This document shows positions 25,487-33,888 of a DNA stretch of 64,000 nt, piece after piece. The position numbers were made by a program, and so were the translations under genes. Positions within the stretch are counted from its first letter, which is position 1; each line of letters begins with the position of its first letter. The notes below the pieces were generated by a model. The model did not search any database and was not told the origin of the DNA. It saw only the letters and a program-made list of their open reading frames with translations. The DNA comes from Byssothecium circinans (lineage: Eukaryota > Ascomycota > Dothideomycetes > Pleosporales > Massarinaceae), in NCBI GenBank assembly GCA_010015675.1, contig ML977013.1, forward strand, positions 29,816 through 93,815. Reading direction: 5' to 3'.

Positions 25487-26270
25487 GAGAAGCGGTGTTC
25501 TTGGCGCATTATTCAGCCACGCTAAGGCTAGCGTCGTCCGGTATCATATCTCAGTGAATAGATTTTCACGTGCACAATGGTGAGGCGGAAACCATCCCTA
25601 TTCCGTCTTAGCGAAGAAGCAGCCCCAGGCGAAGTTTGTGTTAATGCCTTGATGATGGCTGCATCTCCCCCACTCGCTTTCTACATCCACAACACATAGT
25701 TCGAATATGTTAATATTGAAGCTCTTTACTTACGCCCGACCACCTCTCTGTCTGCAGGCCCAGGTATAGTATAACCCTAGGGAGACCAGAGCTAAAGATA
25801 GATATCCGGGTAACTACGACGTAAACAGGTATAACGCAGCGGCAACGGGCCGCCCTGTCAGTCCTCTCCGCGGGGATAGCACACTAAAAACGCCACCCAG
25901 AAATATGTAAACCGGACGGTCCGGGGCCGTGCCGAATAGGGCCTTAAATACCTGCGAGTCCGCTGCGGTCACAGCCTCCAAGGTGTTTTCCAGGCCAATT
26001 GCCCCCCCCCCTCACCAGAGACCGGTCAAAAAGATAAGCTGTTTAATGATACACCCATGTAGATCTCAGCCAATTGAGGGCATCACTGCTTCAGCCCAGC
26101 CATGCAGGAATGATTGCAGCTTTATTGACGTCTCCAGGCATTCATGAGTATATTTATATGTCTAGTTGGAAGCCTTCTCGATTTTATTTCCTTAGCTTAG
26201 TCCTTATATTCTTTTTTTGCGCCTGTCTTTTGGATTTGCATAACGTTTACACGTTCAGGAAAGGACATCC
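25487..26270. other. Intergenic between divergent F-box and caspase-like genes
   Basis: No gene is supported. The interval holds the MITE-like end described separately and a run of nine C bases near 26002. The region before 26270 is AT-rich and may hold the caspase-like promoter. Confidence 0.45.
25882..25943. mobile_element. Solo right end of a Harbinger-like MITE
   Basis: The stretch ends with CCGAATAGGGCC followed by TTA. In reverse it reads GGCCCTATTCGGCACGGCCC and then CGGACCGTCCGGTTT, which parallels the terminal sequence of the MITE at 20799 (GGGCCTGTTCGGTGTCATCC, then GGACTGTCCGGTTT). An ACTAAAAAC word occurs inside, as in the other copy. I could not find a matching left end, so this is a truncated or diverged relative. 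Confidence 0.5.
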
Positions 26271-27356
26271 ATGTCAGCATCTCAAGCGGAGCCACCTAAA
26301 GGTGGCGATCGAGCCGATCGAACGACGAAAATGACGACCAAGAGAAAATCCCGTCCGTCACCCAAACCAGGTACCCCAAATCAGCCAACATTACCGCATA
26401 TGGTGGAACATGAGGACCGAGACTATACCATCATCAAAGTCTTGATTCTGTTCTTCGAATACAACGACTTGGGTATAGCGGGGGAAACTGCAAAAGTGGA
26501 AGAAGCGTTCGACCGCTTGAAGTACCGCGTTCGAACTTTCGAGATCCCAATGGTTGATTCAACCACAAAGCTTGAAGAACGCCTGAATGAGTTCCTCGAG
26601 GTCAAAGACGAATCTAAAGCAAACAGCACATTGCACATCATCTACTATGACGGCCACGGAGGCTTCGACGAAACGGAGGATGGAGTCAAGCAATCTCTCG
26701 ATTTTTTCAGGTAGGCAGACAAATCCGAGATTGAAGTATTGGCCACACTCGCTAACCTATTCTTAAGCCATAACCAGCCTACGGAAGCGCATCTTCTTAT
26801 GAAAGAGATGACCGAATTTTGGAAGACTGAACCGGTTTTGGAAGGAGAGAAATTCCACGCCCATCTCAAACAACGGAGGTGAGCGATCAAAGAGATAGTT
26901 AACGTGAGAAAACCCTTACTAACTGAGCAAAGGAGCCCATTCCAGCCTGTCGCAATGGTCAGTTGGCCAGACATCAGTCCTACCATCCTGAAAGCAAACT
27001 CTGATACCCTCATCATTCTCGACTGCTGTAACGCAGGCCTTGCCGCAGCAACCAGCCAGAAACCTGAAGCTCTCAACGATCTCCTTAGAAAGTACCCAAC
27101 TGAACGGAGAAAAGAGCTCATCGGTGCGTGTGGGTGGGAGATCGAAACGGGATACCATCTAGCACCAGCACTGTGCACCGTTCTGAAAAACCGCCTCCCA
27201 ACTGGAGGATCCGATATGTCCACGTTTACGCTCGTGCGCGACATGAACAATGAGCTGGTTGGAAAGAGCAAAGGGTCAGCACCACAAGCAGTTCACTATA
27301 TCCTCCAGAGCAATCCGAATTCGAAGATGATCCTCTCGAACCTGCAAGAGGATTAG
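26271..27356 (+). CDS. Caspase-like (peptidase C14) protein
   Basis: Three exons, 26271-26710, 26768-26878 and 26933-27356, give 324 residues. The caspase fold is suggested by two motifs: HIIYYDGHGGFDE (residues about 122-135), which supplies the catalytic His, and TLIILDCCNAGLAAA (about 208-222), which supplies the catalytic Cys in the DCC setting typical of metacaspase-type C14 enzymes. The region before the His (IKVLILFFEYNDLGIAGE, then EEAFDRLKYRV) corresponds to the first strand and helix. No prodomain, NACHT or repeat domain is attached. Both introns have GT/AG ends and restore frame, and the second has an ACTAAC branch sequence. In fungi, free caspase-like domains occur near incompatibility genes; here pseudokinases and a HET gene follow within 7 kb. 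Activity is inferred from the dyad, not shown. Confidence 0.75.
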
Positions 27357-28109
27357 GCAGCTGAAAGTCCAGAGGAGTGATAAAGAGATTAAGGGAAGCC
27401 GGACACTTTCGTAGTTGCTGGACATGTCTTCGAGTTGGCAATAGTACTTTGAAGCTCTCTTGGTAGTAATGAAGAAATAGCGAACGAGTTATAAGATACA
27501 GGTTATCGAAATTCCCCAAATATTAACACTCTCTCAAACGATCTTACTGTTCGAGACAGAAAGTGTACGTGAGCTTAAATACTTCAACACTAATTGGAAA
27601 GATTCTATATTCAACTACCGCAGGGTAGACCCACTTTGTTAAGGTGAAGCTGGTCATTTATCTATCCGCACACTCACTATTCTTTAAGATAAGTAGCCCC
27701 TTATCGTATCTTAATTAACTAAAAGATCTACTTACAACTAGAACAAGGAGTCTCTGTAGCTAGGAAATAGTAGAATATAAGTTATTTAGTTATTAGGCAG
27801 CGTGTAGGGCTTTAATATATTAGTTAATGTTAAGTGTTAAAGTAGCTTAAATATATCGTACTTGCTTCTTAAAAAGACTCACACGCGGGTCGTGCACAAG
27901 GACGGTGTGCAAGATATCTTTGTTAAACAAATTGATTTTCCGACAACTATATATACTCCTCCAAGCAGCCTTTCGAAGCCCGCTCTCCAACAACACCTTC
28001 CTTTAATCCACTACACATCAACGCACTAGGACCTCTTTCAACACTTCTCGACACTTCCCGATACATTCGATAACCTACGTCCAAACCACACTCACCTACA
28101 CCAAACAAA
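27357..28109. other. Intergenic with an AT-rich decayed stretch
   Basis: 27580-27870 is TA-rich with no open frames and looks like a RIP-mutated remnant, similar in texture to 1-850. The sequence after 27950 is the pyrimidine-rich leader of the kinase-like gene, with repeated CACTTC and CGACACTTC words. Confidence 0.5.
27948..27955 (+). promoter_or_regulatory. TATA box upstream of kinase-like copy 1
   Basis: TATATATA occurs about 160 bases before the ATG at 28110 and is followed by a C/T-rich leader, the usual layout of a fungal promoter with a TATA element. It suggests the locus was expressed before it decayed. Confidence 0.35.
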
Positions 28110-29016
28110 ATGTCAAGCGCACAGAACCACGGCCTACCAGCCGCGTACTGTCACCTGCATGACCTCGAAGCAGGAGGCGGGAACAATGTGGGCGTCTCCG
28201 TGGTACAGCACAATCCCACAGGCCAGATCCGCTTCTGCAAGGCTGTGCGCAACAAGTACGCCGCCAAGACAGAATCAAAATACCTGAAGCCGATCCAGTA
28301 CCACCCGCACATAACGCACCTGTTCGACGACGTGCCGAAAGCCGAACGCTCAGCCACCGCTCACCACGTCTTCATGGAATATTGCGATGGTGGGAGCTTG
28401 GGCGACATGATCAAAAAGCTGGAACAGAACAACGACCGAGTCCCAGAAGCCTTCATCTGGCACGCCTTCGAGTCGCTGCTACGAGCCCTCTGCATGTGCC
28501 ACTACGGCTGGACCGGCGGTGCGGACGAGGACCTCGACAACATCTGCCCACAGGATAGAACCACGTGGCCGCCCATAAACCACATCGACATCGTATCCGA
28601 AAACGTGATGCTGTCCCGGTTCACCGACCATACAGGCTACAGGCACGACTCGCATCCCCGAATCGGAATATCCACGCGTTATGCTCGCCGACTTCGACAA
28701 TGCCATTTGGCGGGCTTCAATAATCAAACCTCGACGACTGGACGAACTGCTGGAGGTCGACATTCGGGAGGTGAGAGCTGTCATGTACGCTCTGTGCTTC
28801 AGCGACATAGATTGCTCTCCGCATCTTGACCTGACCGAGAAGGAGTGGGTGAATTCGATAGAGCTGTAGGAGGTACTGAAGAAGTGCTCGACGGCAGAGG
28901 AGGACAAGCAGCCTGGGGAGATACGCAGGGCGGATGAGGTACTGAGGATGGTGGTAGGAGCGAGGAGTAAATTACAGCAGGAAGGGAAGCTTGAGGAGCT
29001 ACCCCTTCCCGTGTAA
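28110..29016 (+). pseudogene. Protein-kinase-like gene, copy 1, frameshifted
   Basis: The first frame (from 28110) gives an N lobe with IRFCKAVRNKY (candidate beta-3 Lys), a hinge HVFMEYCDGGSLGDM and a helix FIWHAFESLLRALC. The catalytic loop is INHIDIVSENVML, where the usual catalytic-loop Lys is Val. Between about 28606 and 28660 the homology shifts one frame to EYPRVMLADFDNAIW, so DFG has become DFD. A TAG at 28867-28869 interrupts that frame, yet kinase-tail-like sequence (EVLKKCSTAEEDKQ and QQEGKLEELPLPV) runs on to a stop at 29014-29016. A 43-nt intron could mend the frame only by cutting the catalytic loop, so I prefer an indel. The gene is homologous to the copies at 32.4 and 32.9 kb. 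Confidence 0.65.
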
Positions 29017-29399: not shown

Positions 29400-31560
29400 T
29401 TATTGCTCCCTCGCATCTTGGCCACTTGAATAGCTCTTCCAAGGGTCTTCGTCATAGCAACAACCCGGACCGACAGCCTCCAGTCTAAATGCTTCTCCGC
29501 CTTGGATATCGATCCAATAAATTTTCTTGCCGTCTCTTCTCCCTTTACGAATTTCGAGCTTCGCGCACCCACCTCCCGGTAGCTCTAGTCTCATTCGGTC
29601 CAGATTCTCCCATCTCGCAGGCCCCTTGTCTCCATTCCAGTACTCGTGTGCGATCCGGTTTATGGTTTCATATGGCTTCCCCGTGTCAATATCACAGCCA
29701 AGGTCACTCCAGATGTTGTAGTTATGCATCCCCATTATGGTGTAGAACATGCCCCCTTTGCCATCCCGGAAGAGGAGCACCGCGCAGCACCCGCTCCCGG
29801 CAAATCTGAGTCTCAGCTCCCCATCTTCGTGATCGGGGATCGTCCATTGTTTATGTATCTGGTGGTAGGTGAGGATGGGGATGCCTTGGGGCCGCGATCG
29901 GAAGCAGAAGAGATATTCGGGCGCCGGCGCCATCCACCTGGAGAGCTCAAACTTGCAGGGATCCCGGTTCCTTGCGCCGGTCAGGCTCATGTCGCTCATA
30001 TGGGCGTTGATGGCATGCGCTTCTTCGATCCAGTGGGGTTCCTCCTGGACACAGATGTCCTGGAAGTCGTTCTTGCCGAAGGACACTCCCCGGGTGTCTA
30101 GCTTAATGGTGTCCGTTCTGATGCGGGCGTACATTGGATACCCTTCGTCGTCGTCTCCAAGCTTCTTGAGGTAGATTGCCATGGGTGGCGTGTCGTAGTA
30201 GTTTATTTCGGGCTTCTTGTGGCACGCCATGACCGCCAAATACACGTCGTCTTCGCCCGGCGACCCATCGGGGTCCGGAATCAACGGTAACCGGATCCGG
30301 AGACCCTTCTTGGAGAAGGTCAATCGCTTGGGCGCATGACGGCGCTCGCGCGGCTGGTAGAAGCGACGGCAGTTCTTGAAGTGCCGCGGAGACCGTGCCA
30401 GTAAGCCTGCCGATGGCCTGTTCTCCCCTGGCGGTTCCTGCCAGCAAAACAGGGACTGGTCGTCCGACGTCTTGAGCATCTGAACCTGCAGCCGAAAGAA
30501 CGCCTTTTCTTCGTCTTCTTCAACCTCTTCCCCGTCGCTCTTCTGCAGCTTCATTGGAATATTCACCCCCAAGAGCCCCATGAGACAGCAGACTTGGGAA
30601 CAATCAATTAAGTGGGGCTGGCGCAGTGAAATTGAATTGATTGATTACCTATTTGGGCTAGAGAATTCCCTGTATAGGTTTAACCCCTACTTAATTGGGT
30701 TAGCGGTGGTTTCTACAGAGCCGATTGAATTGATTGTTCCCAAGTCTGTGAGACAGTATGACTTGTCGGCGGCCACCTGCGTCTGTCTTTCAGCAGCCCA
30801 CGCGAGCCTCTGCGCGACGCTTACGTCGCCTCCTTGGTTCAGAACCACGATGGACGGTGCGATTCCCGTGATCTCCGCGATGATACCTTTGAAGCTAGAC
30901 TTTGTCCCGATCTCCTCCCAGTCGTGGTTGAAAAAGATGAGGTAGAGAGGAGCCAGTAGCTCTTGAAGAGTCCAGCCACGCGTGAACCACTGGCTCGTGC
31001 GGAACTTGGAATCCTTGTGCTCTAGGTCGAGATCGTTTTTGGGTACGTCATACATGTAGCAATAACATACTTGAGACTTGCGATACCACGCAAACATGGC
31101 ATTGATGGCGTACGCAACCTCGTCCTTGTCCTGCTTGTTGACGCAGCACGTATCGATCCAAACGTCTGATGGGTTCTCGTCAGTGATCGAGACTTTGGCT
31201 CTTTTCAACCTAAGCGGAAAGTTATTGGCGCTTACAATCGAGACCTACGCTCGCCGCTTGCTTGCAACAGTGGACAATCTTCTTGTATCCATTCGTCTGC
31301 TTTATTTCATCCGTCAAGTTGAACATGTCCGAATAGGAGACTTCATATTCCAGCCATCTGTGAGAAAGGATTGCGTAATCTGGCACTCGGGAGACGCGAA
31401 ACTCGGTAAAAGTCAAAGTCCTCGTGTGCAGCAGCCTCATCATCTCGGTGACGGGTATCTTGGACGCGGGCTTGACCTGGACCTCGTTTCGGGCGGCGTC
31501 GGGGGTCTGCTCGGCCCTGAAGAAAGCCTGAGACAAGAAGTTGAAGAGTTTCTTCAGCAT
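29400..31560 (-). pseudogene. HET-domain (heterokaryon incompatibility) gene split by a MITE
   Basis: Exon 1 is 31236-31560, with an intron at 31166-31235; exon 2 runs from 31165. All three HET blocks are present: DYAILSHRWLEYEVSYSDM, then DYVWIDTCCVNKQD with EVAYAINAMFAWYRKS, then RTSQWFTRGWTLQELLAP. After the block ending ADKSYCL the frame runs into the MITE at 30589-30748 and stops within 17 codons. On the other side of the MITE the frame resumes with MGLLGVNIPM and EKAFFRLQVQMLKTSDDQS, which normally follows directly in HET proteins, and stays open for 393 residues to 29400. Removing the element and one 8-bp duplication would leave an uninterrupted reading frame, so the gene was intact until a recent insertion. 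The N-terminal HET half may still be made as a truncated protein of about 280 residues. The C-terminal half has no recognised domain. Confidence 0.8.
30589..30748. mobile_element. hAT-type MITE, 160 bp, inserted in the HET gene
   Basis: The ends are perfect 21-bp inverted repeats starting CAGACTTGGGAACAATCAAT. The flanks carry an identical 8-bp duplication TGAGACAG at 30581-30588 and 30749-30756. CAG...CTG termini and 8-bp duplications define hAT superfamily elements. There is no coding capacity. Perfect repeats and a perfect duplication indicate a recent insertion with no detectable RIP. Confidence 0.93.
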
Positions 31561-32938: not shown

Positions 32939-33888
32939 ATGCGCCCCTTACGATCCACTCTACCGTTGACATTGAATCGTAACTCATCGTATAGTACCAC
33001 CACCCTACAAGCGCGTACCTACTTCCCGGCACCACTTAACACTTACATTGTAAGCATATTCTCCCCAAAGCCCTCACCAACCACAACAACAAAGAGCCCC
33101 CACACACCCTCCTCATCCGTAAGACCCTCTTCCACGGCAACGGCGAACACGAAGCCAACATCCTCGCGCATCTCCTTAACCACGCCAACATCACGCATCT
33201 ACACGACTACATCCGCGGAACAATCGACAACACCGCCGAGGGTCCGGGAAATGCACTGACACGGTACGACCAAGTATACCTAGAGTACTGCAACAAAGGC
33301 ACCCTGCACGACATGAGGCGCAAACACCGCCGCTCGGGTACCAAGCTCCCGGAAGCGTTCCTCTGGCACGTTTTCGAATCGCTCTTACGCGCGCTGTGCG
33401 CGTGCCACTATGGATTGACGAAAGGCGATGATCTAACCATAACCCAGATGGATGCTTACGCTGGTGGTAAAGAGACTGAGGAGGGAATCAGTGAGTGTGC
33501 GCGCTGGATTCCGATTAAGCACTGCGATATCCACCCTTCTTATATCCTCTTAACTTCCACAGCCTCAGCCTCAAACTCCTCCTCTCACTCAGAGAATACA
33601 TATGCATATCCCCGTGCCCTCCTCGCTGACTTCGGCATCGCGCAGACTGCGGAGGAGCTGCCGTGGCGCCCTTATCGTAAGCGTTATGGGTTCATGAAGC
33701 AGCGCGCCTTGGTTTTGCAGAGTGATGTGACGATGGTAATTTACCGCATTATGTGGCCTTTGTGTGGTTTGGAGCTGCATAAGAGCGGTGGTGAGCGGTG
33801 GGGGTACTCTGAGGAGTTGAAAGATGTGGTGTGGAGACATTCTTTGGATGGAGATGGGAAGACTGCGTGCTTGAACGCTGATGAGTAG
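32939..33888 (+). CDS. Pseudokinase-like protein, copy 2
   Basis: A two-exon model, 32939-33014 and 33071-33888, gives 297 residues and is the only copy that can be read through. Exon 2 shows HTLLIRKTLFHGNGEHEANI (candidate beta-3 Lys and helix-C Glu), a hinge QVYLEYCNKGTLHDM, WHVFESLLRALCACH, a catalytic loop IKHCDIHPSYILLTS and ALLADFGIAQ. DFG is intact, but the catalytic-loop Lys is His and the Asn is Tyr, so catalysis is doubtful. The glycine-rich loop is not visible. The proposed intron has GT/AG ends but a weak branch site. The stop at 33886-33888 is followed in frame by 24 more kinase-tail-like codons (LRRAVEGRMKLESEG), so the stop itself may be a nonsense mutation and the gene a pseudogene. 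Confidence 0.45.

Follow-up and report, generated by a model that had tools for sequence, protein, structure and literature searches.

A 160-bp non-autonomous hAT-type MITE interrupts a HET-lectin gene of Byssothecium circinans in the window (the whole 64,000-nt stretch of DNA that was analysed), and it is very probable that this element, using transposase supplied from elsewhere, was recently cut-and-pasted into exon 2 of what had been a single gene. Judging from the reading frames, the insertion has most likely knocked the gene out. In the course of events proposed here, a transposase made elsewhere in the genome would have mobilised the MITE in trans, as suggested by the ends that it shares with longer elements; the MITE would then have inserted by cut-and-paste into exon 2, duplicating the 8-bp target TGAGACAG, and the transcript would now stop inside the element, yielding a lectin-less protein and probably a receptor null. 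The features are as follows.

29400..30588, minus strand: downstream part of exon 2, from MGLLGVNIP... through the stop, with 393 open codons
29601..29831, minus strand: match to the fruit-body lectin domain (PF07367), E 3.4e-8, with a fold match on the relative P0002
30581..30588, no strand: left copy of the target-site duplication (TGAGACAG), from the sequence
30589..30748, no strand: 160-bp non-autonomous hAT-type MITE, 16 copies genome-wide, 97.5-100% identical to the window copy
30589..30609, plus strand: left terminal inverted repeat (CAGACTTGGGAACAATCAATT), common to three 3.2-kb hAT elements
30687..30689, minus strand: first in-frame stop, reached within the element once 20 residues have been added
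30728..30748, minus strand: right terminal inverted repeat, from an end-pattern search of the window
30749..30756, no strand: right copy of the target-site duplication (TGAGACAG), from the sequence
30749..31165, minus strand: upstream part of exon 2, which encodes the HET domain and closes with ADKSYCL within the duplication, from the open frame and Pfam
31166..31235, minus strand: predicted intron 1, 70 nt (GTAAGC...CATCAG), in agreement with the exon border of P0005
31236..31560, minus strand: exon 1 of the HET-lectin gene; an in-frame ATG lies upstream at 31560, compared with a start at 31440 in the public model P0005

The original prediction had described a 160-bp element with perfect 21-bp inverted ends and a perfect 8-bp duplication, and this anatomy was confirmed to the base. 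The ends start with CAG, and the inverted repeat reaches 28 nt at 89%. When the window was scanned for inverted ends of at least 8 bp spanning 60-700 bp and flanked by an 8-bp direct repeat, the element was the sole match, and none of 20 first-order Markov shuffles of the 64-kb window contained such a place. Furthermore, the 21-bp end, with up to three mismatches allowed, occurs within the window only at the two ends of the element (0.00 expected in 100 shuffles). The element together with one duplication measures 168 bp, which is divisible by three.

When the genome (48.4 Mb in 109 contigs) is searched at the DNA level, at least 16 copies of the 160-bp element are found, 97.5-100% identical to the window copy, so that the element is short, non-coding, multi-copy and homogeneous and has inverted ends, the features by which a MITE is recognised. 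All 16 short copies are flanked by perfect 8-bp duplications, no two of which are the same. Nine of the 16 are identical to the consensus; over 16 x 160 bp the others differ from it by 10 substitutions and a single 1-nt insertion in all, and the window copy has one private change. By these sequences the family is young, and the insertion itself can be considered fresh, as the original prediction had held, because the duplications are perfect at every copy and more than half of the copies equal the consensus.

The frames that the element separates are, by comparison with their relatives, one gene. On the minus strand, the coding sequence ends in ADKSYCL and resumes with MGLLGVNIP at the duplication, just as first described, and the downstream half contains no stop. 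The upstream half scores 35.2 bits for the HET domain (PF06985; cut-off 22.5), and the downstream half, in which the original prediction had missed the lectin domain, scores 34 bits for PF07367 (cut-off 25). A search with the downstream half returned 21 proteins, including P0005. Three of these (P0001-P0003) are 78-82% identical over the whole downstream half. HET and FB_lectin are both listed for them, as for P0004, whose lectin match of 24.9 bits lies just below the cut-off of 25. It might be supposed from the separate open frames on either side that the element lies between two neighbouring genes. However, the insertion point is unbroken in all six of the relatives aligned across it (P0001-P0004, P0006 and, from Bimuria novae-zelandiae, P0007; six of the 20 others found), each of them a single protein. 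Such continuity in six of six relatives is why one gene, not two, is concluded; the two-gene reading, which had been named in advance as a possible refutation, is itself refuted by these proteins and retains practically no probability. The same comparison supports the claim that the element entered a single intact gene.

Within the genome, PF07367 matches only the interrupted gene, compared with at least 153 HET matches; no second FB_lectin gene was found by the genome search with PF07367, which more divergent HET-lectin genes would escape. A structure model of P0002, built on an alignment of 19 sequences, has a mean pLDDT of 70 and is weak within residues 461-580, where ten-residue blocks reach only 44-62. 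Its C-terminal part matches the lectin structures of Xerocomus, Sclerotium, Agaricus and Boletus (XCL, SRL, ABL), with E values down to 8.6e-9, and the next structure matches are bacterial hemolysins, at E 7e-5 to 2e-4 and with lower TM-scores.

This architecture recalls a characterised incompatibility gene. According to PMC10890737, the BH protein of Podospora anserina het-B consists of a HET domain, a middle region, and a C-terminal fruit-body-lectin fold, and it is the lectin region that decides the specificity of recognition. The interrupted gene has the same domain order as Bh, the likeness being one of domain architecture rather than of directly compared sequence; by that architecture the host gene is of the Bh type, and its role in incompatibility is putative. 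Among the neighbouring frames scanned, no Pfam match to a PII-like (Bp) partner was seen; introns, divergence or frames outside the scan could hide one.

What the insertion does to the protein can be read from the frames. In a straight read-through from the host frame, a stop is reached 20 codons into the element. A transcript that now stops there would yield a product of about 267 residues counted from the upstream ATG, or 227 if translation begins where P0005 does, without 393 host residues that comprise the end of the HET region, the HET-lectin middle region and the whole lectin domain. From this we infer a loss or truncation of gene function, the likely outcome being a receptor null. Most of the HET region is kept in the read-through product, and overexpressed HET domains can kill cells, so it might be argued that the truncated protein is itself active, either as a lectin-less HET executioner or as a dominant-negative form. 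However, the insertion precedes the conserved RLQ...SDDQSLFCW segment, and the conserved last ~50 residues of the region (214-263 of P0002) are lost; in the alignment of 19 relatives, 10 of the 40 invariant columns lie between the insertion point and residue 263, and in the P0002 model the missing segment is predicted to form two further helices (H240-254 and H258-261). A fragment with some activity is thus unlikely, and less likely than the receptor null.

A public gene model bears on the same question. P0005, annotated as a B. circinans HET-domain protein of 272 residues (HET 43 bits, no lectin match), maps to the window in 271 residues, the remaining one spanning the first intron, and it includes the element-encoded residues TDLGTINSIGSVE; this match points almost certainly to that species as the source of the window. 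The model predicts a splice that joins a donor at 30716, within the element, to an acceptor at 30525, in the host exon; the frame is kept by this splice but shifted by the second predicted intron. Across window positions 30525-30748 the annotation hides the insertion behind transposon-encoded residues and a predicted element-to-host-exon splice; the case shows how a public gene model came to hold residues encoded by a transposon.

If such splicing occurred in vivo, the element would be acting as a new intron, or introner, and the gene could still function. P0005 does remove most of the element by splicing and preserves the frame where the ends are joined. TSDs and TIRs are described for some introner families, and for one family the addition of codons upon splicing (PMC9860276); introner-like elements have also been reported in Dothideomycetes (PMC4457414). 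Introners resemble the MITE in being short inserts, nearly identical to one another, within coding sequence, and in the TSDs and TIRs that some of them have, but unlike them the window element lacks GT-AG sites for exact removal: none of the nine registers of exact excision starts with GT and ends with AG, a result that contradicts, on the sequence side, the exact-intron refutation foreseen in the original prediction. Inexact in-frame splicing is possible on paper, with 23 frame-keeping, stop-free GT-AG pairs; because 100 shuffled elements gave a mean of 25.8 such pairs (range 11-95), splicing can be regarded as possible but not specially favoured. In addition, the best site score was reached by 72 of the 100 shuffled elements. 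The usual splice consensus is GTRAGT at the donor and YAG at the acceptor, which the GTAGAA donor and GAG acceptor of P0005 fit poorly. The P0005 model goes on to lose the lectin domain in any case, and four of the 15 other short copies have no open frame of at least 60 codons reaching the element. A functional gene with the element as an intron is therefore quite improbable, and interruption of the gene by the MITE remains the preferred reading.

The assignment to the hAT superfamily comes from longer elements elsewhere in the genome. The search of the genome for the 21-bp ends that had been proposed as a check (up to three mismatches) yielded 85 ends, compared with one for a reversed control pattern, and among them were three pairs lying 3.2 kb apart. 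These long elements (L085, L086 and L087) have MITE-type ends and 8-bp duplications in all three cases, and each contains a match to PF05699, the hAT dimerisation domain (E 2.3e-18 in L085). Since three 3.2-kb elements with the same ends contain this domain, the MITE is assigned to the hAT type, in support of the original prediction, and by its sequence is a young member. An 8-bp duplication by itself is not decisive, KDZ and P elements also making duplications of that length; the dimerisation domain argues against any such superfamily, and an origin outside hAT is extremely improbable. The hAT target preference is nTnnnnAn, which the duplications of the family fit in full in 5 of 19 cases, with T2 or A7 in 13 of 19. 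The significant matches between the MITE and the 3.2-kb elements are confined to the terminal 20-26 bp, the remainder consisting of short motifs of the TTGATTGA type. With only those termini in common, there is no support for an origin of the MITE from the 3.2-kb hAT by internal deletion.

For the autonomous donor that was expected elsewhere, candidates were found, namely the three 3.2-kb hATs, but the transposase frame is broken in every one of them. In L085 a single in-frame stop separates the first long frame from the second, and an intron probably precedes the third; the frames of L086 and L087 are more broken. In L086 (C27:193821-197016), C>T and G>A changes account for 185 of the 188 private substitutions, 123 of the 185 lie in a CpA/TpG context, and the substitutions show the pattern of RIP. 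It would fit these data if short elements escape RIP while their long relatives decay. Two related hATs with open frames of 976 and 935 residues (on C7 and C19) were also considered as intact donors and rejected, the frames being mostly N (848 and 834 unknown residues). The transposase may come from another copy, from a related element or from an unread stretch of the genome.

Elements of these kinds have been described in other Dothideomycetes. According to PMC3538342 and PMC4522978, hAT elements and MITEs are present in Pyrenophora tritici-repentis and Mycosphaerella graminicola, respectively, as they are in B. circinans, the likeness to the 160-bp family being one of description and not of sequence. 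A RIP-like CpA bias is seen in the repeats of M. graminicola, and ten MITE families, with an average match length below 200 bp, are named among the repeats without dinucleotide bias (PMC4522978).

Other members of the family also lie in genes. When the flanking frames of 19 members (16 short, 3 long) were examined, those of L003 and L012 being readable in part, a Pfam-recognisable gene was split or entered at seven, one of them the HET-lectin gene of the window. Another MITE copy (L007/L101, on C51) sits in a NACHT-ankyrin NLR, flanked on either side by ankyrin repeats and with NPHP3_N lying 1.7 kb upstream, and a 3.2-kb relative (L087/L097, on C55) sits in a probable SesA/NACHT NLR, with a SesA-like frame (below cut-off) on one side and NACHT on the other. 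An AA9 gene (L008, C19) and a DUF4419 gene (L006, C99) are interrupted with the domain recognised on both sides, and the frames of a 2OG oxygenase (L005, C30) and a short-chain dehydrogenase (L086, C27) are entered with the domain recognised on one side. At an eighth site (C13:452k), a DUF7703 frame extends as far as the element. For the other 11 of the 19 members, no Pfam domain was found at the junction in the frames scanned, some of which are open frames that remain unmatched.

Related hATs are also seen within or next to recognition genes. At G000:C23:51527-54567 (L102, L103), a related hAT of about 3 kb with the duplication GGCTCAAC splits a HET domain at YAALS|HCWG, and at G000:C13:134926-135390 (L104), a related hAT end adjoins a NACHT domain just before the Walker A motif; the far end of the latter element was not found.

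Whether the hAT clan lies near HET and NLR genes more often than expected was asked post hoc, after these cases had been seen. The 85 ends were collapsed to 55 sites, and 261 matches were used: 150 of at least 153 HET matches, all 110 NPHP3_N matches and the window gene, which was added by hand. If a uniform genome is assumed, four of the 55 sites lie within 500 bp of a HET/NACHT match (0.42 expected, P 8e-4) and nine within 3 kb (1.90 expected, P 1e-4). If the window site is left out, three of the remaining 54 sites are within 500 bp (P 0.008) and eight are within 3 kb (P 5e-4). The HET coordinate of the window gene was approximate, 176 bp having been used and 302 bp being obtained on remeasuring. 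As a control, p450 and Zn-cluster genes (231 matches listed, 100 and 131) have none of the 55 sites within 3 kb; 1.69 were expected, and this shortfall is itself within chance.

Five of the nine near sites (on C37, C23, C13, C55 and C51) appear to touch the gene. Those on C32 and C14 were rejected as insertions into a HET/NACHT gene, the open frame of the gene falling short of the junction. L004 (C43, element at 1501-1660) was likewise set aside: the distance to the nearby HET sequence is 880 bp, that sequence is a short fragment for which no N-terminal part was found, and no open gene was found at the element.

These results allow the tentative and rather improbable suggestion that the hAT clan inserts again and again into the cell-death and recognition repertoire, or that selection retains its insertions there. 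Alternatively, the excess near HET/NLR genes could arise because dispensable genes tolerate insertions, or because hATs occupy the same dynamic compartment as those genes. If the suggestion is correct, transposition would erode, and perhaps diversify, the allorecognition set of B. circinans, and null alleles of recognition genes would arise directly from transposons, as the inactive nwd2 of Podospora does from REPA.

To our knowledge, no HET-lectin gene of the Pleosporales has been tested so far, and the interrupted gene offers a clean candidate for a natural knock-out of a gene with the Podospora het-B architecture in this order. Its halves carry no other break, so that strains with and without the element, if they exist, could be used as a natural allele pair. 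The kind of event is already known: according to PMC3321046, the REPA transposon inactivates nwd2 in het-s strains of P. anserina, in all het-s isolates analysed. There, as in the candidate knock-out described here, a transposon insertion affects a self/non-self recognition gene, inactivating it in natural isolates; the REPA target is an NLR next to het-s, whereas in B. circinans the target is a HET-lectin gene, the transposon a hAT MITE, and the observation from one genome. What is new is the locus and the HET-lectin target and, less surely, the clan bias; no report of a MITE in a HET gene was recognised in the literature searched, most subscription journals lying outside its reach.

Other frames in the neighbourhood of the HET gene may be mentioned. 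At 26244-27356 on the plus strand lie caspase-like frames (YYDGHGG and DCCNAG, by eye), which have no Pfam match and a weak NCBIfam caspase match far below the cut-off. Two kinase-like frames, with Pkinase matches below the Pfam cut-off, flank the gene at 28074-28869 and 33040-33888, both on the plus strand, and the first of these seems to shift frame.
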